Shown here piece after piece: positions 385 through 63,036 of a DNA stretch of 64,000 bases (its first letter is position 1; each line of letters begins with the position of its first letter). The notes below the pieces were generated by a model, which saw only the letters and a list, made by a program, of their open reading frames with translations, searched no databases and was not told where the DNA came from. The position numbers and the translations under genes were made by a program. The stretch comes from Novisyntrophococcus fermenticellae. GTDB taxonomy: Bacteria > Bacillota > Clostridia > Lachnospirales > Lachnospiraceae. The DNA lies in assembly GCF_018866245.1 (NCBI RefSeq), contig NZ_CP076458.1, forward strand, positions 2,356,001 to 2,420,000, given 5' to 3'.

Positions 385-1310
385 CTCGCTTCCTCCAATC
401 GTTCTTCTACCTCTTTACGTCTCGGAATAGAATCAATGACTCCATATTTTGTCACCGAGATTCCTGCCGCCGCATTTCCGAATCTGACGGCCTCCCGAAT
501 GCTCCTCCCCTCTGCCAGCGCAACACAGAACGCACCTGTAAAAGTATCTCCGGCCCCCGTGGTATCTACAGCCTTTACGGGGATTCCCGCAACTTTTTTG
601 CAAATTTGGGCATTTCGAATATATGCGCCGCGGGATCCAAGTGTCATCACTACGTTCTCCACTCCCCTGGCATATAATTTCTCCGCCACCTCTTCATCAG
701 ATATCTCATCATCTGCCTCCAGACCCAGGATCTGACGCGCCTCTGATTCATTGGGAATCAAATATGTACAATTTCCCAGCAGCTCGTCACTCAGCAGAGA
801 ATAAGGTGCCGGATTTAAAACAAAAGGAACACCTTCCTCCCTGCAGCGTCTGGCGGCATATTCTACAATGTCCATACTACACTCAAGCTGCATAAGCAAC
901 AACCGGCAGCCCCGAATCGCCGGCATCATACATTCCACATCTTCTCTGGAATATTCCTTATTGGCCGCAAAGTCAATGACGATTTCATTTTCCCCTTCTT
1001 CATTCACGAAAATCAGCCCTACCCCTGTGGATAAACCTTTCCGGCTTTTTCGGACATGAGAAGCATCTATCTGTTCCTCTTCATACATCTTAAGGGCATC
1101 ATCGGCAAAAGAATCATTTCCCACACAGGTGCCATAATATACCTCAGCCCCCATTCGTGCAGCTGCGACTGCCTGATTGGAACCCTTTCCGCCTCCCATC
1201 ATCTGAAAATCACGTCCCGGTACCGTCTCTCCAACCTTTGGAAAATGTTTTCCTACAATTGTCATTCCCACTGCATAACTGCCAATAACAGCTATTTTCT
1301 CTTTCTTCAT
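381..1310 (-). CDS. rbsK: PfkB-family sugar kinase, ribokinase-like
   Basis: This PfkB/ribokinase-family kinase should phosphorylate a sugar with ATP. The glycine-rich GGGKGSNQ segment lies at about residues 39-46, and the C-terminal signature DTTGAGDTF (about 249-257) supplies the catalytic Asp. An ATG at 1316 is also open, but it sits one base from the AGGA ribosome-binding site; the ATG at 1310 has 7 bases of spacing and is preferred (309 aa). The N-terminal sugar-contact motif N-x-D of true ribokinases reads A-V-G here (after GSY), so substrate specificity is uncertain. It lies about 10 bases after the UroD-like gene and overlaps rbsD by 4 bases. Confidence 0.88.
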   Translation of the reverse strand: MKKEKIAVIGSYAVGMTIVGKHFPKVGETVPGRDFQMMGGGKGSNQAVAAARMGAEVYYGTCVGNDSFADDALKMYEEEQIDASHVRKSRKGLSTGVGLIFVNEEGENEIVIDFAANKEYSREDVECMMPAIRGCRLLLMQLECSMDIVEYAARRCREEGVPFVLNPAPYSLLSDELLGNCTYLIPNESEARQILGLEADDEISDEEVAEKLYARGVENVVMTLGSRGAYIRNAQICKKVAGIPVKAVDTTGAGDTFTGAFCVALAEGRSIREAVRFGNAAAGISVTKYGVIDSIPRRKEVEERLEEAR

Positions 1311-1319
1311 GCTCATATC

Positions 1320-2555
1320 CTACTTTCTATAGAATTCAGGAACCCCATATTTTAATGCCGTATCAAACACTGCCAAAATTTTTTCAGGAGAAATCCCAGC
1401 CTGAATATTATGAATCTGCGAATACACGAATCCGCCTCCGGGGGCATAACATTTTATCATCTCTTTACATTCTGCAATTATCTCTTCAATCGTTCCATGT
1501 GTCAGCGTTGTCTGTGTACTGCAGGCTCCGCCCCATATTGTCATCTTGCTGCCGAACTCCTTCTTAATCTGGTACGGATCCATGTTGGCACATTCCTTCT
1601 GTATCGGGTTTAAGATATCATAACCAGATTCGATAATATCTCCGATAATAGGTGCAATTCCTCCGCAGCAGTGAAGTGAAATATGGATATCTTTCTTCTT
1701 TTTTCTTATGGCCTCGTTGATTCTTGCATGGCGCGGCTTAAAAAATTTACGATAGGTTTCCGGAGACAAAAGCATGCCTCTTTGCTCCCCAAAATCATCA
1801 TTATTCTGAACCACAGTCACATAATCCCCTACTGCTTCCAGATATCGTTCCATCATCACTATATATGCGTCCGTCATCTTATCCAGATAGTACGCAATCA
1901 ATTCCGGTTCAACATACAGATTTTCCATAAATGTCTGCATTCCCCAGTCCTTCCATCCCTTTTCAAAGAGACTTGTACTGGTGGCTCCGGAAATGCAAAA
2001 ATCTGTATTTTCATAGATATCTTTTGCCCTGTTATGCAGCCACTCCATCTCATAATCCGAGATAGTGGGTAATTTCAGGTTCTTATCAATGTCTTCCGGA
2101 GTTTCTGCTTCTTTCAGCGGATTGTAGCATTCATCAAAATAGAGTCCATCTTTGGGACGTTTTGCAAGAAGATGTCCTTCGTCGTCAAAAACCCCCCATG
2201 TTCCCCCACCAATATCCTTCGGTCTGAACGCCTCCGACAGCAGACAGCTTCCACCATTTTGAGGCAGTTCTCCCGGAACCAGCTTATCAATCGGAATTCC
2301 GATAGAAGGTACCAGGCGGGGCAGGATTACAACATCGACTCCCAAACGCCTCAATATGTCGAAATCCGCATATGCCAGATCTTGTTTTACGTCAAAACAG
2401 ATCGTCTCTTTGTCATTTCCCAGATATCTTTTCAGATCCTGATACGCATTTGCATTAATACCCGTGGATCTTGATGATCCCAAATCAATGGGCACCCGAT
2501 CCGTTTCCTCGTGATTCAACGCCATCAATACTCTTTCACGTGATGTTAATCCCAT
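1320..2555 (-). CDS. Uroporphyrinogen decarboxylase-like protein (UroD/MtaA superfamily)
   Basis: This 411-aa protein begins MGLTSRERVLMALNHEETDR, the typical opening of catabolic UroD-superfamily proteins (UROD/MtaA/CmuA type). These often act as corrinoid-dependent methyltransferases or have unassigned roles rather than serving haem synthesis. A central SLHCCGG segment and a following WGG segment fit the barrel. It is first in an operon with a ribokinase-like kinase and RbsD, preceded by two LacI-type operators. No haem gene and no corrinoid protein gene is visible nearby, so a haem role is unlikely. The actual substrate is unknown; a role in processing a sugar-linked compound is inference from context. 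Confidence 0.75.
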   Translation of the reverse strand: MGLTSRERVLMALNHEETDRVPIDLGSSRSTGINANAYQDLKRYLGNDKETICFDVKQDLAYADFDILRRLGVDVVILPRLVPSIGIPIDKLVPGELPQNGGSCLLSEAFRPKDIGGGTWGVFDDEGHLLAKRPKDGLYFDECYNPLKEAETPEDIDKNLKLPTISDYEMEWLHNRAKDIYENTDFCISGATSTSLFEKGWKDWGMQTFMENLYVEPELIAYYLDKMTDAYIVMMERYLEAVGDYVTVVQNNDDFGEQRGMLLSPETYRKFFKPRHARINEAIRKKKKDIHISLHCCGGIAPIIGDIIESGYDILNPIQKECANMDPYQIKKEFGSKMTIWGGACSTQTTLTHGTIEEIIAECKEMIKCYAPGGGFVYSQIHNIQAGISPEKILAVFDTALKYGVPEFYRK

Positions 2556-11344: not shown

Positions 11345-12093
11345 CAGTCATCTCTCCTCCGAAATGCGCCCGAAAGAACTAAAAGCCGGAGCAGCTGCAA
11401 CAGCGAGCCTATGACGGCAGCCACATAAGTCATAGCCGCTGCACGCAGTACCTTACGTGTGCTTTTTACCTCTGTTTCTCCAAGAATTCCAGTATCGCCC
11501 AGCATCACCAGCGCCCTTTTAGAGGCGTTAATTTCCACTGGGAGGGTAACAATCTGGAACAGCAAAGCTCCGCAGAATAATAGGATACCAGCCATCAGCA
11601 ATGGCTTCATGGAAGCGATCAGTCCGATGAAGAACAACGGCCAGGACAGCTGAGATCCGAAATTTGCCAAAGGAACGATAGCAGACCGTATGTTCAGTGG
11701 TACATAATTCCTGGCATGCTGTACCGCATGACCACATTCGTGAGCAGCCACTCCTATAGCCGCTATCGAATTGCTTCCATAGACAGACTGTGAAAGTCTT
11801 AATACCTTATTAGAAGGATCGTAGTGATCCGTTAATTTTCCCTGCACCTGTTCAATCCTTACATCATAAATACCTGCCGACTGCAAAATACGCTGCGCCG
11901 CCTGGGCACCTGTCAGGCCACTTGCCGCCCTCACATTACTATATTTGGAAAATGTGGTGTTCATCTGGGCCGAAAATATTCCGGATATCACCAACGCCAG
12001 CAAAATCAGCATATAGGTAGGATCAAATCCCCAGAAATAACCGCTATTTCCGTAATAAAGCCCACTCTGAGCCAAAGCTATTATCATAAACAT
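11344..12093 (-). CDS. Membrane zinc metallopeptidase, YugP family
   Basis: This is a predicted neutral zinc metallopeptidase of the YugP/DUF family, of poorly known role. The 249-aa protein has an N-terminal hydrophobic segment (MFMIIALAQSG onward), the zinc-binding motif HECGHAVQH (about 127-135) and further hydrophobic helices (about 160-190 and near the C-terminus). It sits between fmt and rsmB, where this family is commonly found in Clostridia. Its substrate cannot be read from the sequence. Confidence 0.88.
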   Translation of the reverse strand: MFMIIALAQSGLYYGNSGYFWGFDPTYMLILLALVISGIFSAQMNTTFSKYSNVRAASGLTGAQAAQRILQSAGIYDVRIEQVQGKLTDHYDPSNKVLRLSQSVYGSNSIAAIGVAAHECGHAVQHARNYVPLNIRSAIVPLANFGSQLSWPLFFIGLIASMKPLLMAGILLFCGALLFQIVTLPVEINASKRALVMLGDTGILGETEVKSTRKVLRAAAMTYVAAVIGSLLQLLRLLVLSGAFRRRDD

Positions 12094-12103
12094 ACACTCC
12101 TTA

Positions 12104-13036
12104 TCACTGCAATCTTGTGTCTACAGGTAACTGAAATCCTCGTAAAAAGGCATCACAGGACATCCTTTTCTTCCCCTCAAGCTGTACCTCCTCTAATCGG
12201 AGCACCCCTTTTCCTGTCTGAACAAAGATTCCGCTCTTACCGGCATCAGTCACCATGCCGGGCTCTTTCCCTGTTTCTACATCCAGGACAGAAGCTTTCC
12301 AGATCTTTAATGTCTTTTGGTTCAGGATAGTATAGGCACTTGGCCAGGGATTTAAGCCCCGGATCAGGCGTTCAATGTTCTTTGCCTCCATGTGCCAGTC
12401 AATCCGGCCATCCGTTTTTCGGATCATCCTGGCATAGGCATTGGGACTGTCCGCCGGCTGCTTCTCGGGTGTTATCTCCCCTTGCTCCAGTCTGTCCAGC
12501 GTATCCACCAGTAAGCCCGCTCCTGCTTTACTCAATTTATCAAACAGACTTCCGCCTGTTTCGTTTTCCTGAAGTGGTATCACTGTTTTGGCCAGCATAT
12601 CTCCGGTATCCAGTCCCGCATCCATGCGCATGATCGTTACTCCGCTTTCCTTCTCTCCGTCTATTACTGCCCACTGGATGGGCGCGGCCCCGCGATACTT
12701 CGGAAGCAGGGATGCGTGTACATTCAGGCAGCCAAACGCGGGTATTTCCAGTATACTTGCCGGAATAATCTGACCAAATGCAACCACAACGATGACATCC
12801 GGTTTCAGTTGTCTTAAAAGCTCTACAAATTCAGGCTCACGCACCTTTATAGGCTGGTATACCGGAATATCGGCAGCAATTGCCGCTGTCTTTACCGGGG
12901 TGTACTGCATGGCCTTTCCTCTTCCCTTCGGACGGTCCGGCTGCGTTACAACCCCTGCTACTTCATGGCCCGCCGCAATAATTGCTTCCAGTGTCCCTAC
13001 AGAAAAATCCGGGGTTCCCATAAATACAACCTTCAT
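12104..13036 (-). CDS. fmt: Methionyl-tRNA formyltransferase
   Basis: Fmt formylates initiator Met-tRNA using 10-formyl-tetrahydrofolate. Motifs include FMGTPDFSV at the N-terminus, the catalytic NVHASLLPKYRGAAP block (about 106-120, with Asn/His) and MDAGLDTGDM (about 143-152). A C-terminal OB-like domain completes the usual 310 aa. It lies directly downstream of def, which later removes the formyl group, so opposing steps are co-transcribed. Confidence 0.96.
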   Translation of the reverse strand: MKVVFMGTPDFSVGTLEAIIAAGHEVAGVVTQPDRPKGRGKAMQYTPVKTAAIAADIPVYQPIKVREPEFVELLRQLKPDVIVVVAFGQIIPASILEIPAFGCLNVHASLLPKYRGAAPIQWAVIDGEKESGVTIMRMDAGLDTGDMLAKTVIPLQENETGGSLFDKLSKAGAGLLVDTLDRLEQGEITPEKQPADSPNAYARMIRKTDGRIDWHMEAKNIERLIRGLNPWPSAYTILNQKTLKIWKASVLDVETGKEPGMVTDAGKSGIFVQTGKGVLRLEEVQLEGKKRMSCDAFLRGFQLPVDTRLQ

Positions 13037-13065
13037 CTGCTTCCTCCTTTACTTTCCCAGGTGTT

Positions 13066-13542
13066 TTATTCCTCTTCTTCAATCACCGTATTGTCACGCA
13101 ATTCTCCCTGAACATGCGTCGTATACATGATTCCGTCCAGATGCTCACATTCATGACAGATTGCACGGGCTAAAAGCTCCGTACCTTCCAGTTCAAAAGG
13201 CTTCATATTCTCATCATAGGCCTTTACCCTCACATAGCCTGGCCGTGTAACGGTGCCACATTTGCCCGGAATGCTTAAGCACCCTTCATCACCGGTCTGT
13301 TCTCCCGATGTTTCTATAATTTCCGGATTAATCAGTACATGGGGCGTTCCATCTGTATCAATGACCACGATACGCTTCAGGATTCCGACCTGGGGTGCGG
13401 CAAGACCGACTCCCATCGCATCATACATGGTGTCAAACATATCCCCTATTAATTGCTTGATCTTTGGTGTGGATTCCGCCACCGGGCGGCACACCTTTGT
13501 CAATGCTTTATCTCCTTCTAATCTGATTGTCCTGATTGCCAT
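13066..13542 (-). CDS. def: Peptide deformylase
   Basis: Def removes the N-formyl group from nascent proteins. All three family motifs are present in 158 aa: GLAAPQVG (about 46-53), EGCLSIPG (about 91-98, metal-ligand Cys) and CHECEHLDG (about 132-140, two metal-ligand His and the catalytic Glu). It is 29 bases upstream of fmt in the priA-def-fmt order. Confidence 0.96.
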   Translation of the reverse strand: MAIRTIRLEGDKALTKVCRPVAESTPKIKQLIGDMFDTMYDAMGVGLAAPQVGILKRIVVIDTDGTPHVLINPEIIETSGEQTGDEGCLSIPGKCGTVTRPGYVRVKAYDENMKPFELEGTELLARAICHECEHLDGIMYTTHVQGELRDNTVIEEEE

Positions 13543-20966: not shown

Positions 20967-21578
20967 CTAAAAAAATTTTCTGCACATCTCTATCAACAGG
21001 GGATTTACATAACATTCTACCAGGATTCCCAGCCCGAAAATTGCCAGAATCAGGATGCAGAGCATCAGGTACCTTCCGTATTCTCCCATATTCTCAACCT
21101 CTTTTCTGGAACTTTTTTCAGACATCATAAAAGCCTGATTTAAAAGGAGTGCAATGGCCGGAACATAAAAAATCATAGGCAGAAGCAGACAGCCGAACAG
21201 TTTCAGCATACCTCTTAATCCCAATTGAAGCAGTGCTGCCGAACATAGCAGACCTCCCAGAAAGCCGTACCAGAGCAGCCCCAGATAGACTGCAGCCATT
21301 CCAAAAGAGGTAAGTCCCAGAATCATCAGCATTACAGGCGCCTTCATTCGTACACCTGCAAGATACTTTAAATAGTCTTTTACACTTCCATCAACAGTTA
21401 TCCAGGTGCCGGCACTTAAAAGGTTTAATCCTGTTATGGCGCTTGGACGGATGTTCCATGCCACATTCGCAAAGAGAATCCCTCCCAGAAAACCCGCCAG
21501 GAACAGAAATAAGAAAATGCTGCCGTAGGGCATCCTTGTAAACTTATAAAAATATTGCCTGTAGAATCCTTTTTTCAT
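20967..21578 (-). CDS. spoIIM: Stage II sporulation protein M
   Basis: SpoIIM is a mother-cell membrane protein of the engulfment complex with SpoIID and SpoIIP. The 203-aa protein has a short basic N-terminus and several hydrophobic helices (about 16-36, 78-100, 103-130, 134-150 and 175-195), the multi-helix layout of this family. A GAGGGGG ribosome-binding site is 7 bases before the ATG. The spoIIM-xerD neighbourhood supports the call. A SigE-like -10 is visible upstream. Confidence 0.85.
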   Translation of the reverse strand: MKKGFYRQYFYKFTRMPYGSIFLFLFLAGFLGGILFANVAWNIRPSAITGLNLLSAGTWITVDGSVKDYLKYLAGVRMKAPVMLMILGLTSFGMAAVYLGLLWYGFLGGLLCSAALLQLGLRGMLKLFGCLLLPMIFYVPAIALLLNQAFMMSEKSSRKEVENMGEYGRYLMLCILILAIFGLGILVECYVNPLLIEMCRKFF

Positions 21579-21598
21579 AAAAATGCCCCCTCTTTTTC

Positions 21599-21626
21599 AG
21601 TGTATGCTTACGCATGATGAAAAAGA
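21599..21626 (-). promoter_or_regulatory. Candidate SigE promoter of spoIIM
   Basis: On the minus strand CATACACT (21599-21606) matches the SigE -10 consensus CATACAMT. A T-rich -35-like TCTTTTT (21620-21626) lies 13 bases upstream. Bacillus spoIIM is SigE-dependent. The -35 is imperfect, so the call rests mainly on the -10. Confidence 0.45.
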
Positions 21627-21677
21627 CAGGGCTTTTTTCAAAGTAATAAAGTCTTAAAAGTTCGCATGACCGAACGG

Positions 21678-38931: not shown

Positions 38932-40416
38932 TTATTTTTCCCAGACTCCGGCCACCAATACGGTCATATCGTCCTTCGCTTCATAGCCACAATATGCCAT
39001 AACACGTTCCAGAATACTGCGTCCAAACTCTTTCGGCGTTGTACTGTGAATTTGCATAATGATTTCTTTCATGGTTTCCTCCTCCCTGGAGAGGGGAAGA
39101 GCATCCAAAACTCCGTCTGTCACCATAATCAGATAGTCACCATTATACAGCTTTTTAGTCGTTGTATCAAAATCCAGCTGCTGTACCAGCCCCGCAGCAA
39201 TACTCGTGGACGTGATTGTCTCCACCCACTGGTCTCTCTTAATGAATGAGGTGGCAGCTCCGGCTTTAAGAAAATCGCAGACCCCACTGTAAAGATCCAA
39301 AGAACAAAGATCTACTGTTGAAAACATCCCGTCATTCCTCTGAAGAACGAGAGCAGAATTAATCATCTTGGCTGCGGTCTCTTTTGAAAATCCTGAAGTT
39401 ATAAATTGCTCAAGCAAATCCACCACAGCCTCACTTTCTTTATTGGCATCCAGTCCGGACCCCATCCCATCCGACAGACACATGACGAACTTTCCTTCAC
39501 CGTCTGTGCAGGCATAACTGTCTCCGGAAATATTTTCATTTTCCTTGGTTACCTTAGCAACTCCATACAATACCCTGTAATTTACATCTTCCATAAAAAG
39601 CACAGTATTATATTCTCCATTCAGTATTGTATGCCCTTCCTTCACAGCAGCCATACTTGTCCCACAAATTTTTGAAAGCACACGGGATATCTCATGTAAA
39701 GTTATACATTGTCCGGCACGGGCACGCATCGTAATATAAATCTGTATCTTCTCTGCCGGCTTTTCCAGCATCCACATCTTTTTAACGATTACATGCTGCT
39801 TTCTCAATGCTTTTTTTACCTGTTCTTCCAGATTCTCGGGCACAGTACTGATGCTGTAGATGCTCTCAGCGGTTTTCTGCATGATATGTGCAACTTCCCC
39901 CAGCTGCTCTGCCACTGCAAGACGGTTTTCAATCAGCTTATTATTCCAGACCAGTGCCTGTCTGGATTGAAAAAACAACTGTTTTAACCGATCCAGGTAA
40001 CGCGCTCCATTAATACAATGCACCATCCAGTCGCCCTGTGCCCGGTTAATCTGATCTGCATCCCCTTCCTCCAAGATTCCTATAAGATCACAGGCCTGCT
40101 GATAATTCAGATGATAACATAGTCTCCAACAGGAATCAAATTTACTGCAGCCGGTACACATCTCCTCCTGCACCCGGTTCAGTATCTCCTCCATCTCCCC
40201 ATTAGACAGGTGCTCCTTACGATAAGGCATGCTGTAGAATGAGTTTGCCAGCCTTTGAAAGGAGTTGGCATAACGCTCCATCTGTTCTTTCTGCGGATGC
40301 TTCTCATAGATTTCAGCTTCCACTTTATTTTTTCTGGTTCTAAAAACAGTGATTGCCATGTCCCGTACAATCAGCAGACCGCCGAATGAGAGCATGGCAA
40401 GTATCCATCCCGGCAT
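38932..40416 (-). CDS. spoIIE: SpoIIE-type sporulation phosphatase, short form
   Basis: SpoIIE dephosphorylates SpoIIAA to activate SigF in the forespore. The C-terminal PP2C domain (about 285-494) is complete (GDSYA, SDGMGSG, TDGVLD, KDDMTVL). A central region has the cysteine cluster CTGCSKFDSCWRLC seen in SpoIIE. The frame is open to 40506, but the ATG at 40416 follows GGAGG by 8 bases, giving 494 aa with only one membrane helix. Bacillus SpoIIE is about 830 aa with ten helices, so the membrane domain is largely missing. The promoter directly upstream shows that this is not an assembly truncation. Confidence 0.88.
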   Translation of the reverse strand: MPGWILAMLSFGGLLIVRDMAITVFRTRKNKVEAEIYEKHPQKEQMERYANSFQRLANSFYSMPYRKEHLSNGEMEEILNRVQEEMCTGCSKFDSCWRLCYHLNYQQACDLIGILEEGDADQINRAQGDWMVHCINGARYLDRLKQLFFQSRQALVWNNKLIENRLAVAEQLGEVAHIMQKTAESIYSISTVPENLEEQVKKALRKQHVIVKKMWMLEKPAEKIQIYITMRARAGQCITLHEISRVLSKICGTSMAAVKEGHTILNGEYNTVLFMEDVNYRVLYGVAKVTKENENISGDSYACTDGEGKFVMCLSDGMGSGLDANKESEAVVDLLEQFITSGFSKETAAKMINSALVLQRNDGMFSTVDLCSLDLYSGVCDFLKAGAATSFIKRDQWVETITSTSIAAGLVQQLDFDTTTKKLYNGDYLIMVTDGVLDALPLSREEETMKEIIMQIHSTTPKEFGRSILERVMAYCGYEAKDDMTVLVAGVWEK

Positions 40417-40452
40417 ATAATACTCCTCCTCTATACCCTGTACTAAAGGAAT

Positions 40453-40522
40453 ATTATAACCGCCTGTATGTAAAAAAAATGTCAAAAAATCATGAAATTC
40501 CAGCAAAACTTTTCGGCAAAAA
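40453..40522 (-). promoter_or_regulatory. Spo0A-type promoter of spoIIE (21-bp spacer)
   Basis: On the minus strand TTGACA (40480-40485) and TATAAT (40453-40458) are perfect but 21 bases apart. This is the unusual spacing known for Spo0A-activated SigA promoters of spoIIE in Bacillus. A 0A-box-like TTTTTGCCGAAAAG (40509-40522; TGCCGAA versus consensus TGTCGAA) lies upstream, and TGTCAAA on the other strand (40480-40486) overlaps the -35. Confidence 0.75.
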
Positions 40523-40856: not shown

Positions 40857-41319
40857 CTGATTCACCCTTATTATGACTCTGGAGACGCTCCCCTTTCTTA
40901 CGTCCCCCCAACTTGGTTCTCAGCAATAGTTTAACTCTAAACAGACCGGATTTCAACCTTTTTATCACTTTTTTTACAATATTCAGCGGTATTCGTAATA
41001 TTTTTAAAATCTTTTTAAACAAAAAAGTAAAGAACCTGACAAAATATGGGCTGATGCTGACATAGCAGGCCAGACTTCCAAATAATACTCCAGCTCCCAG
41101 ATAGCCTCTTAAGATGCCGCTGTTTTCCTGAAAATATCGGGCAAACAGGAAAAGCGCACAGAAGATCCAAAATAGAAGATCCTCCAGGGCCACAAATGCT
41201 GAACTGTGCCGAATCACATTCCGACTGATTTTCAGCACATCATAAGTAAGCACTAATAATGCTCCATACCAGATTGATTTTACAAACAGCAGGAGTTCTC
41301 TGCTCATATAAGCACTCAT
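40795..41319 (-). CDS. yabQ: Spore cortex biosynthesis protein YabQ
   Basis: A mother-cell membrane protein needed for cortex formation. The N-terminal half has four hydrophobic helices (about 8-30, 45-62, 68-87 and 88-105), followed by a long very basic C-terminal tail rich in Lys and Arg (about 105-174). It starts 5 bases after the yabP stop. An internal ATG four codons later is also possible. Identification rests on size, topology and the yabP-yabQ-divIC context. Confidence 0.85.
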   Translation of the reverse strand: MSAYMSRELLLFVKSIWYGALLVLTYDVLKISRNVIRHSSAFVALEDLLFWIFCALFLFARYFQENSGILRGYLGAGVLFGSLACYVSISPYFVRFFTFLFKKILKILRIPLNIVKKVIKRLKSGLFRVKLLLRTKLGGRKKGERLQSHNKGESDEKKKKRRQKKTHKGTQPSE

Positions 41320-41324
41320 ACGAA

Positions 41325-41603
41325 TTACCCGAACAGATGCTTGAGAAGGGAACCGCTATTATTTTTTTGGCCTTTGGAACTATAGACCAGACTTTCTACC
41401 TCCCCATCCAGATCCACTTCCCCTTCTGTCAGCTGAAGACGCCCTACGTGAAGCTCCTTTCCTTTAATTATCAACCTCCCCTCCGTGGTATCCAGCAGGA
41501 TTTCATGTTCGTCAAAAGACAGCACGTCCACCACACCGCTTATGGTTCCGCTTTTCCTGTTTAACAGCTTTATCTGATGCAGTTTCCCGGAATGTTCTTC
41601 CAT
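41325..41603 (-). CDS. yabP: Sporulation protein YabP
   Basis: YabP/YqfC-family protein (92 aa) needed for late sporulation, cortex assembly. The body is a beta-rich domain (GVVDVLSFDEHEILLDT, then GRLIIKGKELHVGRL). The start is ATG at 41603. Its only visible ribosome-binding site, GGAGG at 41614-41618, lies inside the 3' arm of the terminator hairpin of rqcP, 10 bases before the ATG. Confidence 0.88.
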   Translation of the reverse strand: MEEHSGKLHQIKLLNRKSGTISGVVDVLSFDEHEILLDTTEGRLIIKGKELHVGRLQLTEGEVDLDGEVESLVYSSKGQKNNSGSLLKHLFG

Positions 41604-41605
41604 AC

Positions 41606-41650
41606 AAAAAAAGCCTCCATATAACTTCTTTCTTATTATATGGGGGCTTT
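41606..41650 (-). terminator. Terminator after rqcP, overlapping the yabP ribosome-binding site
   Basis: Arms at 41636-41650 and 41610-41624 pair over 15 bases (one G-U), with an 11-base loop. A seven-T tract follows on the minus strand (41606-41612). It lies between the rqcP stop (41669) and the yabP ATG (41603) and contains the GGAGG used by yabP. Confidence 0.88.
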
Positions 41651-41663
41651 CACTATACTATTC
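41635..41663 (-). promoter_or_regulatory. Candidate SigE promoter of yabP inside the terminator
   Basis: GAATAGT (41657-41663), a 14-base spacer and CATATAAT (41635-41642) fit the SigE pattern (GMATATT, 14, CATACAMT) with two mismatches. The expected start, near 41628, falls in the hairpin loop. Bacillus yabP is SigE-dependent. Confidence 0.6.
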
Positions 41664-41668
41664 CTTAT

Positions 41669-41908
41669 TTACATATATCGGTACAGTTCCGATGCTTCCT
41701 CTTTACGGACAGTATCCTGCACATTCAGGATTTCAACCTTTACAGCATTACTGCCAAACTGAATCTCCAGAACATCTCCTGGCTTAACCTGGACGGATGC
41801 TTTGGCCGGCCTTCCGTTCACCAGCACACGACCTGCATCACAGGCCTCATTGGCAACTGTTCTGCGCTTTATCAGTCTGGATACTTTCAAAAACTTGTCC
41901 AGTCTCAT
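41669..41908 (-). CDS. rqcP: S4-domain protein RqcP
   Basis: A small S4 RNA-binding protein (79 aa), the homologue of Bacillus YabO/RqcP, which helps RqcH add alanine tails to stalled nascent chains on 50S subunits. The S4 motif covers about residues 1-60 (MRLDKFLKVSRLIKRRTVANEACDAG). It follows hup after 4 bases and is the last gene of a hup-rqcP unit ended by the hairpin at 41606-41650. Confidence 0.93.
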   Translation of the reverse strand: MRLDKFLKVSRLIKRRTVANEACDAGRVLVNGRPAKASVQVKPGDVLEIQFGSNAVKVEILNVQDTVRKEEASELYRYM

Positions 41909-41912
41909 AGAA

Positions 41913-42185
41913 TTAGTTCATCATATCCTTTAAAGCCTTGCCGGCTTTGAATTTTGGTGATTTAGAGGCTTTGATAATCATAGTCTCGCCGGTCTGAGGA
42001 TTTCTTCCTTCTCTTTCTCCTCTTTCAGATACTTCGAAAGTACCAAATCCAACAAGCTGAACCTTCCCACCCTTTTTAAGTTCATCGGCTACCACATCCG
42101 TAAAAGCCTTCAGTGCTGCTTCTGCATCCTTTCTGGATAACTGTGTCTGCTCAGCGATAGCTGCAACTAATTCAGTTTTGTTCAT
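41913..42185 (-). CDS. hup: HU-family DNA-binding protein
   Basis: A histone-like protein that bends and compacts DNA. The 90-aa protein has the HU signature [21 protein letters not shown] with the DNA-intercalating Pro in RNPQTG. GGAGG precedes the ATG. A strong promoter is at 42285-42313; it forms a transcript with rqcP. Confidence 0.97.
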
Positions 42186-42284
42186 GAGTAATTCCTCCTG
42201 TGTTTTCTTCTCAAAAATTATAAAAAGCTAGTTAACATCACAATCTCATAAGAAATTTTCTCTGTTATTTTAACTCTACAATTA

Positions 42285-42313
42285 TTTATATACTCTACGT
42301 TCTCATTTGTCAA
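42285..42313 (-). promoter_or_regulatory. SigA promoter of hup-rqcP
   Basis: TTGACA (42308-42313), a 17-base spacer and TATAAA (42285-42290) on the minus strand lie just after the mazG stop, with a leader of about 95 bases. Confidence 0.8.
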
Positions 42314-42318
42314 GGAAT

Positions 42319-43002
42319 TTACTGCATTTCTTGACTTTTTAAGAGGTTTTTTACTGTTTTTTCAAGCAAAACTTCACTGCTCATATCGTTCAGCCTTGCA
42401 TAATTACATAAGTACAGGAAAGCCTCTCCTGTCAGCTCTTCTTTTTTTATATCGTCAGTCTCTGTTTTAAGCGTCTCCAATCGGGTTATGGCTTCCTGCA
42501 GGCTTTTTTGCGGTTCCTTATTCAACCCATAATAATAATCCAGTTTTTTCAGAACTTTTGAGGTCTTGATCAGAGATGGAAGAGCCCTGGGAATTGCAGC
42601 AATTTCTTCTTCCGGGGTTTGAGAGCCCTTCTCTTCTTTCTTCAGCTTCTCCCAGTCCGGCTGCCCCTCCATGGAATCTCCAAAAACATGGGGATGTCTA
42701 TGTATCATCTTTTTGCTGATACCATCTATCACATCCTCCAAGGTAAAGTTTCCTTCTTCTTCAGCAAGCTGGCTATGGAATACCACCTGCATCAGTACGT
42801 CTCCTAACTCTTCGCAAAGATTGTCAGGACTTCCGCCTTCGACAAGGGTTTCTATTCCGTCCACAGCCTCATAAGCCTCCTCCAGCATGCATGGAATCAA
42901 GCTTTCATGGGTCTGGATCTTGTCCCATGCACATCCGTCTTTTCCTCTTAAGGTCCTTATAATTTCCTGAAAGTCCTGAAATGTATACTTATTCTTCATC
43001 AT
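42319..43002 (-). CDS. mazG: Nucleoside triphosphate pyrophosphohydrolase MazG
   Basis: MazG hydrolyses NTPs and dNTPs to monophosphates and helps clear aberrant nucleotides. The 227-aa protein has LRGKDGCAWDKIQTHESL near the N-terminus and the metal-binding E-x-x-E-x-x-D type motif EELGDVLMQVVFHS (about 64-77). A second, degenerate MazG half follows. The Bacillus homologue YabN carries an extra N-terminal methylase domain, which is absent here. It overlaps pgcA by 4 bases. Confidence 0.93.
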   Translation of the reverse strand: MMKNKYTFQDFQEIIRTLRGKDGCAWDKIQTHESLIPCMLEEAYEAVDGIETLVEGGSPDNLCEELGDVLMQVVFHSQLAEEEGNFTLEDVIDGISKKMIHRHPHVFGDSMEGQPDWEKLKKEEKGSQTPEEEIAAIPRALPSLIKTSKVLKKLDYYYGLNKEPQKSLQEAITRLETLKTETDDIKKEELTGEAFLYLCNYARLNDMSSEVLLEKTVKNLLKSQEMQ

Positions 43003-44729
43003 AACATCTTATGAATCATATCTACGACTTCTTTTCCCAAAGCAGCCGATTTTGCATCCGCATCTGCCATAGAACTGCCTTTGATTCCATAGTAGAACTT
43101 CACCTTCGGTTCCGTTCCTGATGGTCTTACGCATATCCAGGCATCATCCTCCAGATCATAATACAGAACGTTGGATTTGGGCAGCCCGGTCGGCTTAACA
43201 GCACCGGTTTCCGTTTCAATTATCTTGTCCTCTTTATAGTCACGGGATAAAACCACTCTGTAATCACCGATTTTCTTAACAGGTTCCCGGCGAAGCGTAT
43301 CCATAATTTCCTGGATTTTTGCCAGTCCTTCAATACCTGTAAGCGTAATAGACTGAATGTCGTCTTTGTAATAGCCGTACTTCTCATAAAGCATGATCAT
43401 GGCATCCCATAGGGTCATCCCCTGGGACTTATAGTACGCTGCCGCTTCACAGAGCGCCATGGTTGCAACAATTGCGTCTTTGTCACGGGCATAAGTTCCA
43501 ATCAGGCAGCCGTAAGACTCTTCAAATCCAAACAGATAGCTTCCTTTTTTGCTCTGCTCAAAGCCCAGGATCTGCTGTCCGATATACTTGAAGCCTGTCA
43601 AAACCTCAATCAGCTCCACTCCATAATACTTTGCAATTGCGTCGGCCATATTACTTGTCACAATCGTCTTAATCAGGGCTCCATCATCGGGGAGTCCATA
43701 AAGTTCTTTTCGCTGTCCAATCTCATAGTCCGCCAGAAGACAGCCGGACATATTCCCGGTCAGGGTATGGTAGTTTCCATCCTTATCACGTACCCTGACA
43801 CCCAGGCGATCGGCGTCAGGATCTGTGGCCAGAACCAGATCGGCTTCAATTTCCTTTGCCAGTTTCAGCCCCAAATCAAAGGCCTCATCTGCTTCAGGAT
43901 TTGGGTAACTTACTGTCGGGAACTCTCCGTCTGGAAGCTCCTGCTCCTTCACAACATAGACCTGGCAGAATCCCAGTTCCTTCAGCACACGGCGAGCTGG
44001 GATATTGCCTGTTCCATGCAGGGGAGAATATACGATTTTCAAATCTTTTGCCACCTTTTCAATGGCATCCATATGTAATACCCGGCTCTTCAGCTCCCCG
44101 ATATAAGAATCATCAATATCCGAACCAATTACCTGATACAGGTTTTCTGCAACAGCTTCCTCCCGGCTCATCGTCTTTACGTCCTTATAATCTGTCACCA
44201 GCTTTACCTGATCCATAATCCCTATGTCATGAGGCGGCGTTATCTGGGCACCATCTTCCCAGTACACTTTATAGCCATTGTACTCCGGCGGATTATGGCT
44301 GGCAGTGATATTAATTCCGGCTATACATCCCAGTTTTCGGACTGCAAAAGAAAGCTCCGGCGTAGGGCGCAGAGATTCAAAGATGTATGCCTTTATCCCA
44401 TTTGCGGCCAGACAAAGTGCGGCCTCCCGGGCAAATTCCGGTGACATGCGGCGAGAGTCATAAGCAATGGCTGCTCCCTGCGCCTGCCCGTGTACAGAGA
44501 TAATATAATTCGCCAGACCCTGTGTTGTCTTACGAATCACATAAATATTCATCCTGTTTGTTCCGGCACCGATAATCCCTCTTAAGCCTGCCGTACCAAA
44601 TTCCAAATCCCTGTAAAAACGTTCTTTTATCTCATTCTCGTCCTCTGCGATAGCACGTAACTCTTCTTTTGTTCTGTCATCAAAATATGGGTTCTCCAGC
44701 CATGACTGATAAACTGCCTTATAATCCAT
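42999..44729 (-). CDS. pgcA: Phospho-sugar mutase (phosphoglucomutase PgcA type)
   Basis: Alpha-D-phosphohexomutase interconverting glucose 1- and 6-phosphate (or mannose phosphates). The phospho-serine loop TASHNPPEYNGYK (about 142-154), the metal site DPDADRLG (about 303-310) and the C-terminal phosphate-binding RPSGTEPK are intact. The frame is open to 44777, but the ATG at 44729 follows GGAGG by 7 bases (576 aa). It could link glycogen or envelope-sugar synthesis with glycolysis. It is followed by mazG with a 4-base overlap. Confidence 0.93.
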   Translation of the reverse strand: MDYKAVYQSWLENPYFDDRTKEELRAIAEDENEIKERFYRDLEFGTAGLRGIIGAGTNRMNIYVIRKTTQGLANYIISVHGQAQGAAIAYDSRRMSPEFAREAALCLAANGIKAYIFESLRPTPELSFAVRKLGCIAGINITASHNPPEYNGYKVYWEDGAQITPPHDIGIMDQVKLVTDYKDVKTMSREEAVAENLYQVIGSDIDDSYIGELKSRVLHMDAIEKVAKDLKIVYSPLHGTGNIPARRVLKELGFCQVYVVKEQELPDGEFPTVSYPNPEADEAFDLGLKLAKEIEADLVLATDPDADRLGVRVRDKDGNYHTLTGNMSGCLLADYEIGQRKELYGLPDDGALIKTIVTSNMADAIAKYYGVELIEVLTGFKYIGQQILGFEQSKKGSYLFGFEESYGCLIGTYARDKDAIVATMALCEAAAYYKSQGMTLWDAMIMLYEKYGYYKDDIQSITLTGIEGLAKIQEIMDTLRREPVKKIGDYRVVLSRDYKEDKIIETETGAVKPTGLPKSNVLYYDLEDDAWICVRPSGTEPKVKFYYGIKGSSMADADAKSAALGKEVVDMIHKML

Positions 44730-44797
44730 CCTGATACCTCCATTTGTTATTCTTTCGTTGAGAAAATTATATACCAAAATGGAGGAAAAAGAAATGA

Positions 44798-45877
44798 CTA
44801 AAAGATGTTTTTCAGAAAGTTTTGCCAGTTTCCAAATTGCAGCTGCAATTGTTCCAGCTTCTCAACATTCTTCCCGGAAATCCAAACCTTGTTATTGTTG
44901 GAATAGTGATTGACAAGCTTCCAGAATTTCCAGGGATAGGAAAGCCGGAGTCTCAAGTCCATTAATTCGCGTTCTGAAAGAGGTCTCACCTTCTGATATG
45001 TTTCAATCATTCCCTCACCCAGGGCAATGTCCCAGTTATGCTTTTCCAATATTTTCCTCATGAAGTGATACAAATCTGCGGTCTGTATATCATAGTTCCA
45101 TCTGTCAAAATTGGTTACGGCTGTCCTGCTGCCTGAAAAGATTACATTGTGCTGATTGTAATCCCCATGGCAAATGCTTCCATTTTCCAGATTCAAATTT
45201 CTAAGTTCTTCATATCCAGAACTTTTCAGATTTTCTACCATCTCCTCCCCTTTTTCCAGAAAAGGTTCCACGCAGGAAAGCAGTTTCATCTCGAAAGCAC
45301 TTTTCTTCTGACGCTTATGTATGAATTTTCTTGTTTTCCGGATTTCGGCGTTGTGACGCATGCACTCATGAATCAGAGATTCCCGGACATATTCTTCTTT
45401 TACTTCAAGATGCATTACCTTATGAAGGGCTGCCAGCATTTCCACCGCCCGTTCGATGTCAGAAATAGAACGGGTATCGCACTCCTTTCCGGAATACCAG
45501 TCACGAACCACATATGTGTTATCTTCTCTGTCACAGGACAGAAGCTCTCCCTCCAGGTTTCGCCGGAGACAATCCAGATACGGAAATTCCGAATTCTTGA
45601 CCTTTTCCATCAGCGTATACTGTTGTTCCAGCTTCTGCTTTGTGCCGCCGCATTCCTTAATGCTGACCCACCCTTCTTGTGTCTCATAGAGCAGGACTCC
45701 TCTTCCCTTGCAGGACGATTTTGCTGTCAGTCCATACTGTTCCAATATCCATAACCCACGATCGTACACGCATGCTCCCCCTTTTCTACTTAAGTGCCGG
45801 TACACTGGAAGATTTCTCGTCCTTCTATAGTATGCAAGGGTCGGAGCATTCATGCACGCGCAGATAAGACGGTGCAA
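44798..45877 (-). CDS. CotS-family spore coat protein, kinase-like
   Basis: This protein has the aminoglycoside-phosphotransferase-like fold, resembling the CotS/YsxE spore-coat family. The catalytic-loop motif HGDYNQHNVIF (about 238-248) and a following NFDRWNYD metal-site segment are present, so it may keep kinase activity. Many Cys and basic residues occur, as in coat proteins. It starts with TTG at 45877 or ATG at 45853; neither has a clear ribosome-binding site. It is 9 bases after the CCA-adding enzyme. The coat role is from family knowledge. Confidence 0.75.
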   Translation of the reverse strand: MHRLICACMNAPTLAYYRRTRNLPVYRHLSRKGGACVYDRGLWILEQYGLTAKSSCKGRGVLLYETQEGWVSIKECGGTKQKLEQQYTLMEKVKNSEFPYLDCLRRNLEGELLSCDREDNTYVVRDWYSGKECDTRSISDIERAVEMLAALHKVMHLEVKEEYVRESLIHECMRHNAEIRKTRKFIHKRQKKSAFEMKLLSCVEPFLEKGEEMVENLKSSGYEELRNLNLENGSICHGDYNQHNVIFSGSRTAVTNFDRWNYDIQTADLYHFMRKILEKHNWDIALGEGMIETYQKVRPLSERELMDLRLRLSYPWKFWKLVNHYSNNNKVWISGKNVEKLEQLQLQFGNWQNFLKNIF

Positions 45878-49126: not shown

Positions 49127-49144
49127 TAATCGCTACGGATTTTA

Positions 49145-49190
49145 AAAATCCTCTGAAAAGCAGTACTCTGCTTTTCGGAGGATTTTTTTA
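49145..49190 (+). terminator. Strong terminator after proS
   Basis: A 17-base-pair hairpin (AATCCTCTGAAAAGCAG, loop TACT, CTGCTTTTCGGAGGATT) is followed by a seven-T run. It lies between convergent proS and the dCMP deaminase gene. Confidence 0.92.
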
Positions 49191-49241
49191 TACCAAAGTA
49201 GGCAAGGAAAGCTGCCAGTGGCAGGTTTTCTGTATACAATC

Positions 49242-52491: not shown

Positions 52492-53198
52492 TCATCTGCT
52501 GGATTTATCTGATTTTTTACTTTTTCCGAGATATTTTAAAACACCATCACATATAGCCTTAGATAGTTTTTTCTGATATTCTTCCGATGTTAACAGTTGT
52601 GCTTCTTCCGGATTGCTTAAGAAGCCGCATTCTACAATTGCAGCAGGAACATCTGTCTTTTTCAGCAGATAGTAGCTGGTATTTCCTTTTGCCAGTCTGT
52701 TATTATCAGGATCTACCTTCTCTACCAGCGCAGATTGTAAATCCTCTGCCAGTTTTTTCCCTTCTGCAGAATGCGTATAATAGAATACCTGTGCCCCCTC
52801 ACTTCAGGGGTAGTATAGCTGTTCTGGTGAATGCTGACCATGCAGTCAGGTGCAGTCTTATGTATCAGTTCACAACGCTGCTGCAAATCCTGAACCTTTT
52901 TATTTTTGCTGTTACTATCATAAAGGCCTTCATCCGAGCTTCTGGTCAGCACAACATGGATATCATGTGCCTCTAACTCCTTTTTTAATAATAATGCAAT
53001 TTCCAGATTCAATTTTTTTTCTTTTTCACCATTTACGCCTATTTTACCAGGATCTGTGCCACCATGCCCTGCATCCAGAACAACTGTCGCCTTATCCGCT
53101 TTTTGTTGACTGACCAATTTTGCACCTTCCCGGGAAAGCCCGAAAATTCCCGCAATAAGCAGAAGTGCCATTATCAGCTCCATCCATCTTTTTCCCAC
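52492..53198 (-). pseudogene. cwlD: N-acetylmuramoyl-L-alanine amidase CwlD, frameshifted
   Basis: CwlD makes muramic-lactam in spore cortex. The 5' part encodes a membrane anchor (about 7-22), the Amidase_3 start VVLDAGHGGTDPG, and SIHQNSY. The frame then breaks at a C5 run (52794-52798 on the plus strand). Adding one G in the coding strand restores the rest: EVRGAQVFYYTHSAEGK, then AIVECGFLSNPEE and a stop at 52492, 235 aa in all, close to the usual length. The total of 707 bases (3n+2) agrees with one lost base. The start is GTG at 53198 or ATG at 53183. It may be a base-calling error. Confidence 0.85.
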
Positions 53199-53201
53199 GG
53201 C

Positions 53202-53244
53202 AAAAAAAATCCCCCGACATCTTTCTAATAATATATGCCGGGGG
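53202..53244 (-). terminator. Terminator after the DivIVA-like gene
   Basis: CCCCCGGCAT (53244-53235), a 14-base loop and ATGTCGGGGG (53220-53211) pair with one G-U; eight T follow on the minus strand. The cwlD start is only 4 bases beyond. A CATATATT (53230-53237), SigE -10-like, lies in the 5' arm and loop. Confidence 0.82.
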
Positions 53245-53273
53245 TCTTTCTTTCAGTCTTGACTTCAGTATTT

Positions 53274-60987: not shown

Positions 60988-63036
60988 TCAAATCTCTCCT
61001 CCATCCAACATTTCTGCCAATGTTTCTTTCAAAATATCAATTGCTTCCGGCAGGTCAATTTCCTCAAATTGACAGCCCGCTATATTCAAATGGCCTCCGC
61101 CGCCCAGACGTTCCATGATAATCTGCACATTTATCTCATCAATAGCCCGGGCACTGACGTATACCGTATTCTTAAATTTCGTCAAAACAAAAGAGGCTTT
61201 CACACCAATAATATTCAATAATTCATTAGCGGCCTGAGCACCTACAATTGTAGGGCTCTCCACATAATCCGAAGGGCAGACGGAAATTGCAAAGGAATCC
61301 CGAAACAGCTCCGCATTCATAATCGTCTCACCCTTTGCCCTATAATCAGACATGTTCTCCCGGAAAAGTTTGCGAACCCTCGATACATCGGCGCCACAGC
61401 GTCTTAAAAACGCAGCTGCTTCAAAGGTCCGAACACCTGTCTTCTGCATGAAGTTATCGGTATCCACCATAATTCCCGCATAGATGGTATCCGCTTCTAT
61501 GTTCCGGATGCGCACTCCATCTGCAAAATACTGCAATATCTCTGCAACCATCTCACATGCGGAGGACGCATACGGCTCTATATATGACAATACAGAGTTT
61601 TTAACAACTTCGCTTCCCTGGCGGTGATGATCCAGAACTACAATAGTCTTTGTCAGATACAGCAGGTCCTCACACTCGGTATAACTTGGCTTATTAACAT
61701 CTACCACCACTACCATGGTGTTATCATCCACAATCTCTTTTGCCTCATGGCAGGAGACAAACATATCCTGCCCATATTCCTGATCATTCAAAAAACCCGC
61801 CATCAACGGCTTAATTGAAGTAGTAGGATTGTCAATTACAATATGGGTCTTCTTGTCCAATGCCTTAGCGGCACAGTAAACACCTACAGCCGCACCAAAA
61901 GAATCCACATCTGTAATTTTATGTCCCATAACTACAATCTTTTCTTTCGTCAGCATCAGTTCCTTGAGTGCATGCGCTTTTACTCTGGCCTTTACTCTGG
62001 TATTCTTCTCGACTGCCTGAGTCTTTCCGCCATAATAGGAAATCTGCCGGCCTTCTTTGACAACTACCTGGTCTCCGCCCCTTCCCAATGCCAGATCAAT
62101 GGCAATTCTTGCAAATTCTGCATTCTTGGCATAGGTCCCCGTATTCGCCCCGATTCCGATACTAATAGTCACCGCCATCTCATTGCCGATATTAACTGTC
62201 TTTACCTCTTCCAGAATACTAAATCTGCCGGCCTTCAGCTCATCCAGGGAACTTTGACGCATTACCAGAAAATACTTGTCCTTCTCTATCTTCTTGACCA
62301 GTCCATCCGTGTCATTAAAATACTTATTAATCTTTCTGTCCACAAGTGCAGTAAGCAATGAACGTCTCACCTCTTCCACACTTTCCAGTGCTTCGTCATA
62401 ATTATCCAGATATAAAAATCCGGCCACCATATTCTCTGCTTTATATTTTTTGATATACGTATTTAATTCCGTTTCATCAAAAAGAAACATGGCCGTCAGA
62501 TGGTTATTCTGGTTTTCTGCAGTTATAATCTCAGAATCACCCAGGAGTTCATCCATCATAATACGCTTCATATGAATTCTGAAATCACGGTTTTCATAGG
62601 TGAGCGTAACCTCTGACTCCTCTTCATTCTCCGGCAGCTTATCCATCGTAATCTGCGAGAATATATTCGTAATCGATTTATGGTACTGCTTCTCTTTCCC
62701 AGTAAGCTCGGCGAATTTCTTATTCACCCACAACAGTTTTCCCTGTGAATCCAGAAGTGCATAAGGCACTGACAGATTACTCATCAGACTTTTCTGTACC
62801 TGCCCATACCTCGTGGCAAATGAAATAAGGTCATTAAATAAAATCGGACGGTTATGATAATACAAAAGCACCACAATTGCAATATAAAAAGCCACAAAAA
62901 CAGTCATCACTGCTCCTGCACGTCTATTGATAACATAAATAAATATATTCATGATAATCAGTAAGGCAGAAAGTATCATCGGCCATTTTAAGTAAGAGCG
63001 CAATTGCCCGCTTATTTTAATCTTATTATTTCCCAT
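60988..63036 (-). CDS. gdpP: Cyclic-di-AMP phosphodiesterase GdpP
   Basis: It hydrolyses c-di-AMP, affecting potassium and cell-wall homeostasis. Domains in order are two transmembrane helices (about 13-55), a PAS domain (about 75-185), a degenerate GGDEF domain (about 190-330) and DHH/DHHA1 domains with GHKITDVDSFGAA (about 372-384) and DHH (about 470). The length, 682 aa, is typical. AAGGAG precedes the ATG. It is first of the gdpP-rplI-dnaB unit. Confidence 0.95.
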   Translation of the reverse strand: MGNNKIKISGQLRSYLKWPMILSALLIIMNIFIYVINRRAGAVMTVFVAFYIAIVVLLYYHNRPILFNDLISFATRYGQVQKSLMSNLSVPYALLDSQGKLLWVNKKFAELTGKEKQYHKSITNIFSQITMDKLPENEEESEVTLTYENRDFRIHMKRIMMDELLGDSEIITAENQNNHLTAMFLFDETELNTYIKKYKAENMVAGFLYLDNYDEALESVEEVRRSLLTALVDRKINKYFNDTDGLVKKIEKDKYFLVMRQSSLDELKAGRFSILEEVKTVNIGNEMAVTISIGIGANTGTYAKNAEFARIAIDLALGRGGDQVVVKEGRQISYYGGKTQAVEKNTRVKARVKAHALKELMLTKEKIVVMGHKITDVDSFGAAVGVYCAAKALDKKTHIVIDNPTTSIKPLMAGFLNDQEYGQDMFVSCHEAKEIVDDNTMVVVVDVNKPSYTECEDLLYLTKTIVVLDHHRQGSEVVKNSVLSYIEPYASSACEMVAEILQYFADGVRIRNIEADTIYAGIMVDTDNFMQKTGVRTFEAAAFLRRCGADVSRVRKLFRENMSDYRAKGETIMNAELFRDSFAISVCPSDYVESPTIVGAQAANELLNIIGVKASFVLTKFKNTVYVSARAIDEINVQIIMERLGGGGHLNIAGCQFEEIDLPEAIDILKETLAEMLDGGEI

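Follow-up and report, generated by a model that had tools for sequence, protein, structure and literature searches.

A promoter nested in a hairpin upstream of yabP as a likely translational insulator, with related elements at other sporulation genes of Lachnospiraceae and their relatives

In phage T4, early read-through RNA hides the Shine-Dalgarno (SD) sequences of the genes e and soc in a hairpin, and a late promoter that starts inside this hairpin frees them. We describe here an element that appears to apply the same principle outside a phage early/late switch, upstream of the sporulation gene yabP in Novisyntrophococcus fermenticellae. It lies in a stretch of 64,000 nucleotides (nt) (NZ_CP076458.1, positions 2,356,001 to 2,420,000; hereafter the window, whose own coordinates are used throughout) and consists of a hairpin whose 5' arm holds a SigE-type -10 element and whose 3' arm holds the yabP SD. 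We consider it likely that this element is a promoter-nested translational insulator that also resembles an intrinsic terminator.

The closest bacterial parallel is sigG (spoIIIG) of Bacillus subtilis, for which a large hairpin has been put forward that would keep read-through RNA from being translated and that is unable to form in RNA made from the sigG promoter (PMC5942855), the read-through RNA being stated to be untranslated (PMC2530871). As at yabP, the hairpin hides the SD in read-through RNA and not in own-promoter RNA; however, sigG encodes a forespore sigma factor and its hairpin, of 20 or more base pairs, belongs to one gene, whereas the yabP device carries a SigE-type -10 inside the 5' arm, has a T-run as spacer, is spread over the order and is found at several genes. 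The passages on sigG in these two sources describe neither a terminator tract nor a -10 placed in an arm. Like an ordinary intrinsic terminator, the yabP hairpin is a stem with G-C pairs, has a T tract behind it and stands where a transcription unit ends, but its 3' arm is the SD of the next gene and its 5' arm holds that gene's -10. For B. subtilis, the part of PMC517825 compared here names yabPQ, cwlD and spoIVA as cortex genes controlled by SigE. The masking principle is therefore already known; the nesting, the T-run spacer, the order-wide spread and the recurrence at mother-cell genes are absent from the sigG and SigE passages compared, within a limited search of the literature.

Reading the minus strand letter by letter places the rqcP stop codon at 41669 and the yabP ATG at 41603, and the 65-nt gap between them contains the hairpin, the promoter, the SD and the T-run (Table 1). 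A preliminary description made from the sequence had proposed this layout, and the arrangement of hairpin, promoter and SD is confirmed: the sole yabP SD, GGAGG, lies in the 3' arm (41618-41614), and a SigE-like promoter (GAATAGT at 41663-41657, then 14 nt to the -10 at 41642-41635; in SigE-style wording ATA-N16-CATATAAT) has its -10 in the 5' arm, where an anti-SD sequence, CCCCC, stands directly upstream of the -10 and extends into it. The hairpin itself had been given as 15 base pairs followed by seven T; it is present, but only 14 of the 15 positions pair (C41644 opposes A41616 within the SD, and an extra T-G pair stands at the loop), and of the seven T (41612-41606) three sit in the 3' arm and only four come after it. 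With its ATA-type -35, its CATA-type -10, the right spacing and a known SigE gene behind it, the site is a putative SigE promoter, and its score was matched by none of 60 shuffles of the yabP upstream region, under a consensus combining the usual SigE form with that read off relatives. By fold and sequence the element also has the make-up of an intrinsic terminator, a stable stem (41650-41610) with a T tract directly after it (41612-41606). A simple terminator scan did not list it, perhaps because the scan takes loops of 3-8 nt and this loop has 9, and a search of 41000-42400 with the Rfam covariance models found nothing up to E 1. Since 18 nt separate the rqcP stop from the 5' arm downstream of it, a ribosome terminating on rqcP should leave the arm uncovered.

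Folding of the 101-nt region gives -25.9 kcal/mol (z = -4.61), a value that none of 200 shuffles equalled. We expressed masking as the energy needed to free a 7-nt window around the SD, with read-through RNA modelled from 130 nt upstream and SigE RNA from 6 nt after the -10; this measure replaced SD pairing probability, which was tried first and dropped because weak base pairs with the opening codons already drove it to saturation in this genus. At the window's yabP, the predicted cost of opening the SD is 13.6 kcal/mol in read-through RNA and 4.9 kcal/mol in the SigE transcript. The former value was attained by none of 40 shuffles of the upstream part, and a later 100 shuffles reached at most 10.6 kcal/mol. 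As in the sigG model, the SD is predicted to be paired in read-through RNA and not by that arm in own-promoter RNA. The earlier claim of a masked versus an exposed site therefore holds in these models as a difference in ease: the prediction is of a SigE RNA far more open than read-through RNA, though not completely so.

We next consider 310 yabP loci, which gave 293 after merging identical leaders and 292 after omitting one without an ATA-type -10. The best promoter spacing is 16 in 250 of these 292. The family sample comprises the 110 best-scoring loci from the 190 of 299 genomes that matched, the named-relative sample the best 80 of 409 loci with close kin included, and the order and class samples loci from part of the matching genomes (147 of 196 and 182 of 245 matched, respectively); these samples are biased toward closer kin, although the family draw covers 298 genera in its 299 genomes, so that its rows are fairly independent. 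Masking of at least 5 kcal/mol was found in 6/6 loci of the genus, this genome included (shuffled upstreams, 2.9%), 59/110 of the family (4.5%), 31/71 of the named relatives (5.6%), 25/46 of the order (6.7%) and 16/59 of the class (5.4%). Over the 110 family loci, mean SD opening costs 8.6 kcal/mol in read-through RNA and 2.8 in SigE RNA. Masking reaches 5 kcal/mol in 137 loci, and in 135 of them the sequence that pairs with the SD begins before the predicted start.

When all genes are scored in one and the same way, 51% of 180 yabP loci are masked, as against 1% of 164 for HU, 4% of 171 for rqcP, 6% of 170 for yabQ, 3% of 150 for divIC, 6% of 68 for mazG and 4% of 55 for tilS. When starts were placed as in yabP, HU, rqcP and yabQ were masked in 1-3%.

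Two kinds of evidence point to selection on the pairing itself. When the promoter side of one species was joined to the SD side of another, in loci not selected for folding, masking of at least 5 kcal/mol fell from 51% in natural pairs to 13% in swapped ones, and 71 of 187 natural pairs exceeded all 12 of their swaps where 14.4 were expected. SD partners are thus species-specific. From the 137 masked loci, 70 fell within limits of position, energy and length; 41 were aligned (alignment A2) and 29 retained in one register (A3), among them those of [Clostridium] asparagiforme DSM 15981 (L075) and Lachnoclostridium sp. An14 (L103). These 29 share a 19-bp helix running from the SD through the -10, with 27 double-change cells (8.8 shuffled, 3-21 in slid controls) and double changes in 9 pairs; U-A to C-G and similar changes are seen in the SD core as well as inside the -10. 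RNAalifold found no pair in the mixed alignment A2, because elements in different registers do not align, and the covariance model built from it (R1) had no base pairs and was left unused. A strand-asymmetry test was uninformative in that the HU, rqcP and yabQ controls show asymmetry too. The preliminary description had named conservation of the hairpin/GGAGG overlap in relatives as a check, and the overlap is indeed kept, as conserved masking with species-specific partners and helix covariation; on these sequence comparisons the mechanism it suggested appears well supported.

The device recurs at other sporulation genes, where it is present or absent genus by genus. We had first taken spoIVA, spoIIIAA and spoIIID (30 loci each; usable start in 27, 29 and 16) as SigE controls. 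Among loci with a good promoter, spoIVA is masked in 77% of 22, spoIIID in 31% of 13 and spoIIIAA in 21% of 28, and cwlD is masked in 5 of 29 loci. That the device stands at all SigE genes was rejected on the figures for spoIIIAA and cwlD and on this genome's own spoIVA, where none was seen by eye. A covariance model built solely from yabP elements of other genera (R2) matches, at E up to 0.5, 11/30 spoIVA, 3/30 spoIIID and 1/30 spoIIIAA loci.

In the window, R2 gave five matches at E up to 5, of which three precede the genes yabP (41601-41656), cwlD and spoIIM (Table 1); a fourth (49140-49192) is a plain terminator with no gene after it, and the fifth (61785-61837) is weak (E 2) and followed only by a 25-codon frame. 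In the cwlD element a -10-like CATATATT begins in the 5' arm, GGGGG lies in the 3' arm and a T-run is present, and SD opening costs 12.5 versus 3.0 kcal/mol. In the spoIIM element a -10-like CATACACT lies in the loop, the start is expected in the 3' arm, the SD is GGGGG and the values are 14.9 versus 0.9 kcal/mol. Both elements exceed 100 of 100 shuffles, with a promoter score of 15.0 each. SpoIIM passes the cut-off of PF01944 and falls below that of TIGR02831. CwlD matches TIGR02883 at 99 bits, below its cut-off because the frame is broken: cwlD (52722-53198, minus strand) carries a frameshift in this assembly, and the two portions of its profile align to separate open frames.

Table 1. Coordinates of the yabP element, its neighbouring genes and the two further elements in the window
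Feature	Position	Strand	Evidence
-35 core ATA of SigE-type yabP promoter, inside GAATAGT (41663-41657)	41659..41661	-	sequence
5' arm AAAGCCCCCATATAA	41636..41650	-	fold z -4.61
-10 element CATATAAT, within hairpin 5' arm	41635..41642	-	promoter score 18.0
Loop; predicted SigE start about 41627-41628	41626..41634	-	inferred from -10 position (6-7 nt downstream)
3' arm TTATATGGAGGCTTT	41610..41624	-	fold, sequence
SD GGAGG of yabP, masked within hairpin	41614..41618	-	sequence, opening energy
Run of seven T, terminator-like; doubles as SD-to-ATG spacer	41606..41612	-	sequence
yabP, sporulation protein YabP	41325..41603	-	TIGR02892 82.3 bits, cut-off 75.4; PF07873 73.1 bits, cut-off 27
rqcP-like S4-domain gene, upstream of yabP	41669..41908	-	PF01479 above cut-off
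HU-family DNA-binding protein gene, upstream of rqcP	41913..42185	-	PF00216 above cut-off
Second element, upstream of cwlD	53201..53253	-	R2 25.1 bits, E 0.011 in window, 0.6 genome-scale
Third element, upstream of spoIIM	21576..21641	-	R2 17.0 bits, E 0.47 (weak alone)

At genome scale, R2 gave 18 matches at E up to 1 in six genomes of the genus, each of which had about 800-1900 first-look candidates, 150 of them scored. Four precede yabP and five a DUF3792/TIGR04086 gene (two labelled by model and three by look); CwlD accounts for two (one by look), SpoIIM and an unknown protein of 344 amino acids for one each, and five fall outside these groups. The weight of these matches rests on their gene content, the E-values being individually weak. 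The DUF3792/TIGR04086 membrane protein is preceded by the element in 5/6 genomes of the genus (L435 at G000:C1:1442430-1442478, plus strand; L431, L432, L437 and L446), which suggests a role in sporulation for that protein. The 344-residue protein, behind a weak model match (L440 at G000:C1:560177-560222, minus strand), is a candidate sporulation protein and has no Pfam match up to E 0.01.

The device is also associated with the direction of the upstream gene. Of 76 spoIVA, spoIIIAA, spoIIID and cwlD loci behind a co-directional gene, 31 have it, as against 0 of 12 whose upstream gene points the opposite way (Fisher p = 0.007; without cwlD, 26/49 versus 0/11, p 0.0014). These counts omit thirteen loci without a long upstream open reading frame in reach, two of them masked. 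Such a restriction to co-directional neighbours is consistent with insulation against read-through. Different genes are pooled in this test: spoIIIAA supplies 10 of the 12 opposite cases, and all spoIVA neighbours found are co-directional; for spoIIIAA alone the counts are 4/13 versus 0/10 (p = 0.10).

Could the hairpin simply be the intrinsic terminator of HU-rqcP, the overlap only saving space and the SD masking being inconsequential? T-runs do go with the hairpin: at least four T stand in the SD-ATG spacer of 53% of 96 masked and 6% of 64 unmasked yabP loci (order and class loci, 32% of 41 and 9% of 47), and in 4-6% of HU, rqcP and yabQ, indicating that the hairpin tends to be terminator-like. 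The gap here is tight, and masking is rarer in gaps above 140 nt (5/19). However, a run of four T is missing from 45 of the 96 masked loci, gaps of 80-100 nt show masking as often (62% of 45) as those of 60-70 nt (53% of 34), gap length and masking correlating only weakly overall (rho -0.13, p 0.08), and the anti-SD partner favours a site next to the -10, lying 21 nt ahead of the predicted start in 37 of 137 masked loci. Terminator and masking functions both fit, and masking without a T tract is common; we therefore regard a terminator with incidental masking as unlikely. That unmasked loci have a separate terminator instead was not supported (9/64 unmasked, 6/96 masked, 5/187 shuffled).

We give still less credence to two readings that dispense with the switch. 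The inverted repeat might act in DNA, as the operator of a dimeric regulator or within SpoIIID control, rather than as an RNA structure; indeed, the part of the source compared lists B. subtilis yabPQ, cwlD and spoIVA as SigE genes repressed by SpoIIID (PMC517825). Against this, loop length varies widely, so the spacing of the arms is not fixed, T-runs after the repeat are commoner than in controls, and the helix has 87 G-U cells as against 21 A-C cells, though in a set chosen by folding; inclusion of the SD in the repeat is partly a matter of selection, as loci were ranked on SD masking. An operator is thus very improbable. Equally improbable is a vegetative -10 with the hairpin imposing constitutively low translation. 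TATAAT is contained in CATATAAT, but no sigma-70-type promoter was scored at the site, relatives have forms such as CATATACT, AATATACT or CATACATT, mostly with ATA at 16 nt, and yabPQ is under SigE in B. subtilis according to the same part of that source (PMC517825).

Several observations weigh against a self-releasing insulator or limit its reach. The SigE transcript of the window's yabP keeps its 4.9 kcal/mol through weak pairing with the first yabP codons. About half of the family yabP loci are without the device, and unmasked loci seldom have a separate terminator, which implies that insulation is not needed everywhere. The 29 elements used for covariation were chosen for strong folding and a common register, which inflates their paired percentage, and the alignment slid by -2 equals the helix in double-change pairs (9) and pair types (25). 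At cwlD and spoIIM the -35 place lacks ATA and the promoter matches are weaker than that of yabP; the spoIVA leader of this genome, as said, shows no device by eye; and the genome-scale matches range from E 0.004 to 0.9 without this genome's own yabP among them. A scan of the six genus genomes for CTCC, a -10 and GGAG in that order gave 34 matches, a modest excess over the 15 for the backwards pattern; this genome has six of the matches, and the five that were folded did not convince; the window's own yabP arm does not conform to the pattern. Finally, masking is also raised at genes lacking a clear SigE promoter, namely cotS (53% of 34), spoIIE (28% of 36) and pgm (12% of 17). Clear SigE-type promoters are infrequent at spoIIE (6%) and cotS (9%), and SD masking is therefore not confined to the promoter-nested form.

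Some further features of the window and of relatives bear on these genes. A cotS-like gene (label by eye; 45769-45877, minus strand) has SD masking of 16.4 kcal/mol in the longer RNA, with an uncertain start codon. Behind it, a phosphoglucomutase-like gene (label by eye; about 44729-44790, minus strand) is a mirror case, with TATAAT flanked by CCTCCATTT and AAATGGAGG and masking of 12.9 versus 0.4 kcal/mol. The SpoIIE gene (38932-40506, minus strand) matches only positions 294-763 of the 764 in its profile, below the cut-off, and the usual N-terminal membrane region seems to be missing. In two relatives spoIIID is split, with profile pieces 1-42/43 and 34-79/80 lying about 3.5 kb apart at L450 (G060:C158:6400-11300) and 12.4 kb apart at L451 (G033:C12:135300-149000), and a large serine-recombinase-like gene, recognized by eye, stands beside the 3' piece (689-2218, minus strand, and 11512-13101, plus strand, respectively), an arrangement resembling the sigK skin element. 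Partial spoIIID fragments are also present in G029, G036, G041 and G008. Downstream of the window's yabP lie yabQ and divIC; YabP, YabQ, HU, the S4 protein and DivIC pass their Pfam cut-offs, and YabP and YabQ their NCBIfam cut-offs as well, whereas the name RqcP comes from the preliminary description and was assigned by no profile model. In the nearest relative (L002, upstream of 384), the end of rqcP has a repeated ACCGATATATGTA unit.

We propose that the yabP insulator would operate as follows, assuming that HU-rqcP is expressed during growth. Polymerase leaving rqcP would make the whole hairpin, and many transcripts should end at the T-run; in those reading through, the yabP SD would be paired and yabP hardly translated. 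In the mother cell, SigE RNA polymerase would use the nested promoter and start in the loop, giving an RNA without the 5' arm in which neither terminator nor mask can form, so that yabP would be translated. The use of SigE at this site, the start site, termination, growth-phase read-through and the effect on translation are what we infer from the layout.

More broadly, we lean, if only slightly, towards the view that in Lachnospiraceae and relatives (a name taken from the relatives found rather than from the window) mother-cell genes behind transcribed co-directional genes, namely yabP, spoIVA, cwlD, spoIIM, spoIIID and the DUF3792 gene, repeatedly evolve self-releasing insulators that turn over between genera. 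One sequence would then serve as -10, terminator arm, anti-SD and SD, and only SigE polymerase, starting in the loop, would yield RNA free of the lock. If true, this would account for sporulation genes that sit directly behind growth genes such as HU and yet yield no product during growth, and translation would be tied to promoter choice without a regulator, because the masking arm is omitted only when the sporulation polymerase starts. It would moreover allow one to test whether a promoter element and an RNA helix are under coupled selection. If the device is general, paired anti-SD/-10/SD layouts may be used to predict SigE starts in gut bacteria that resist laboratory manipulation.
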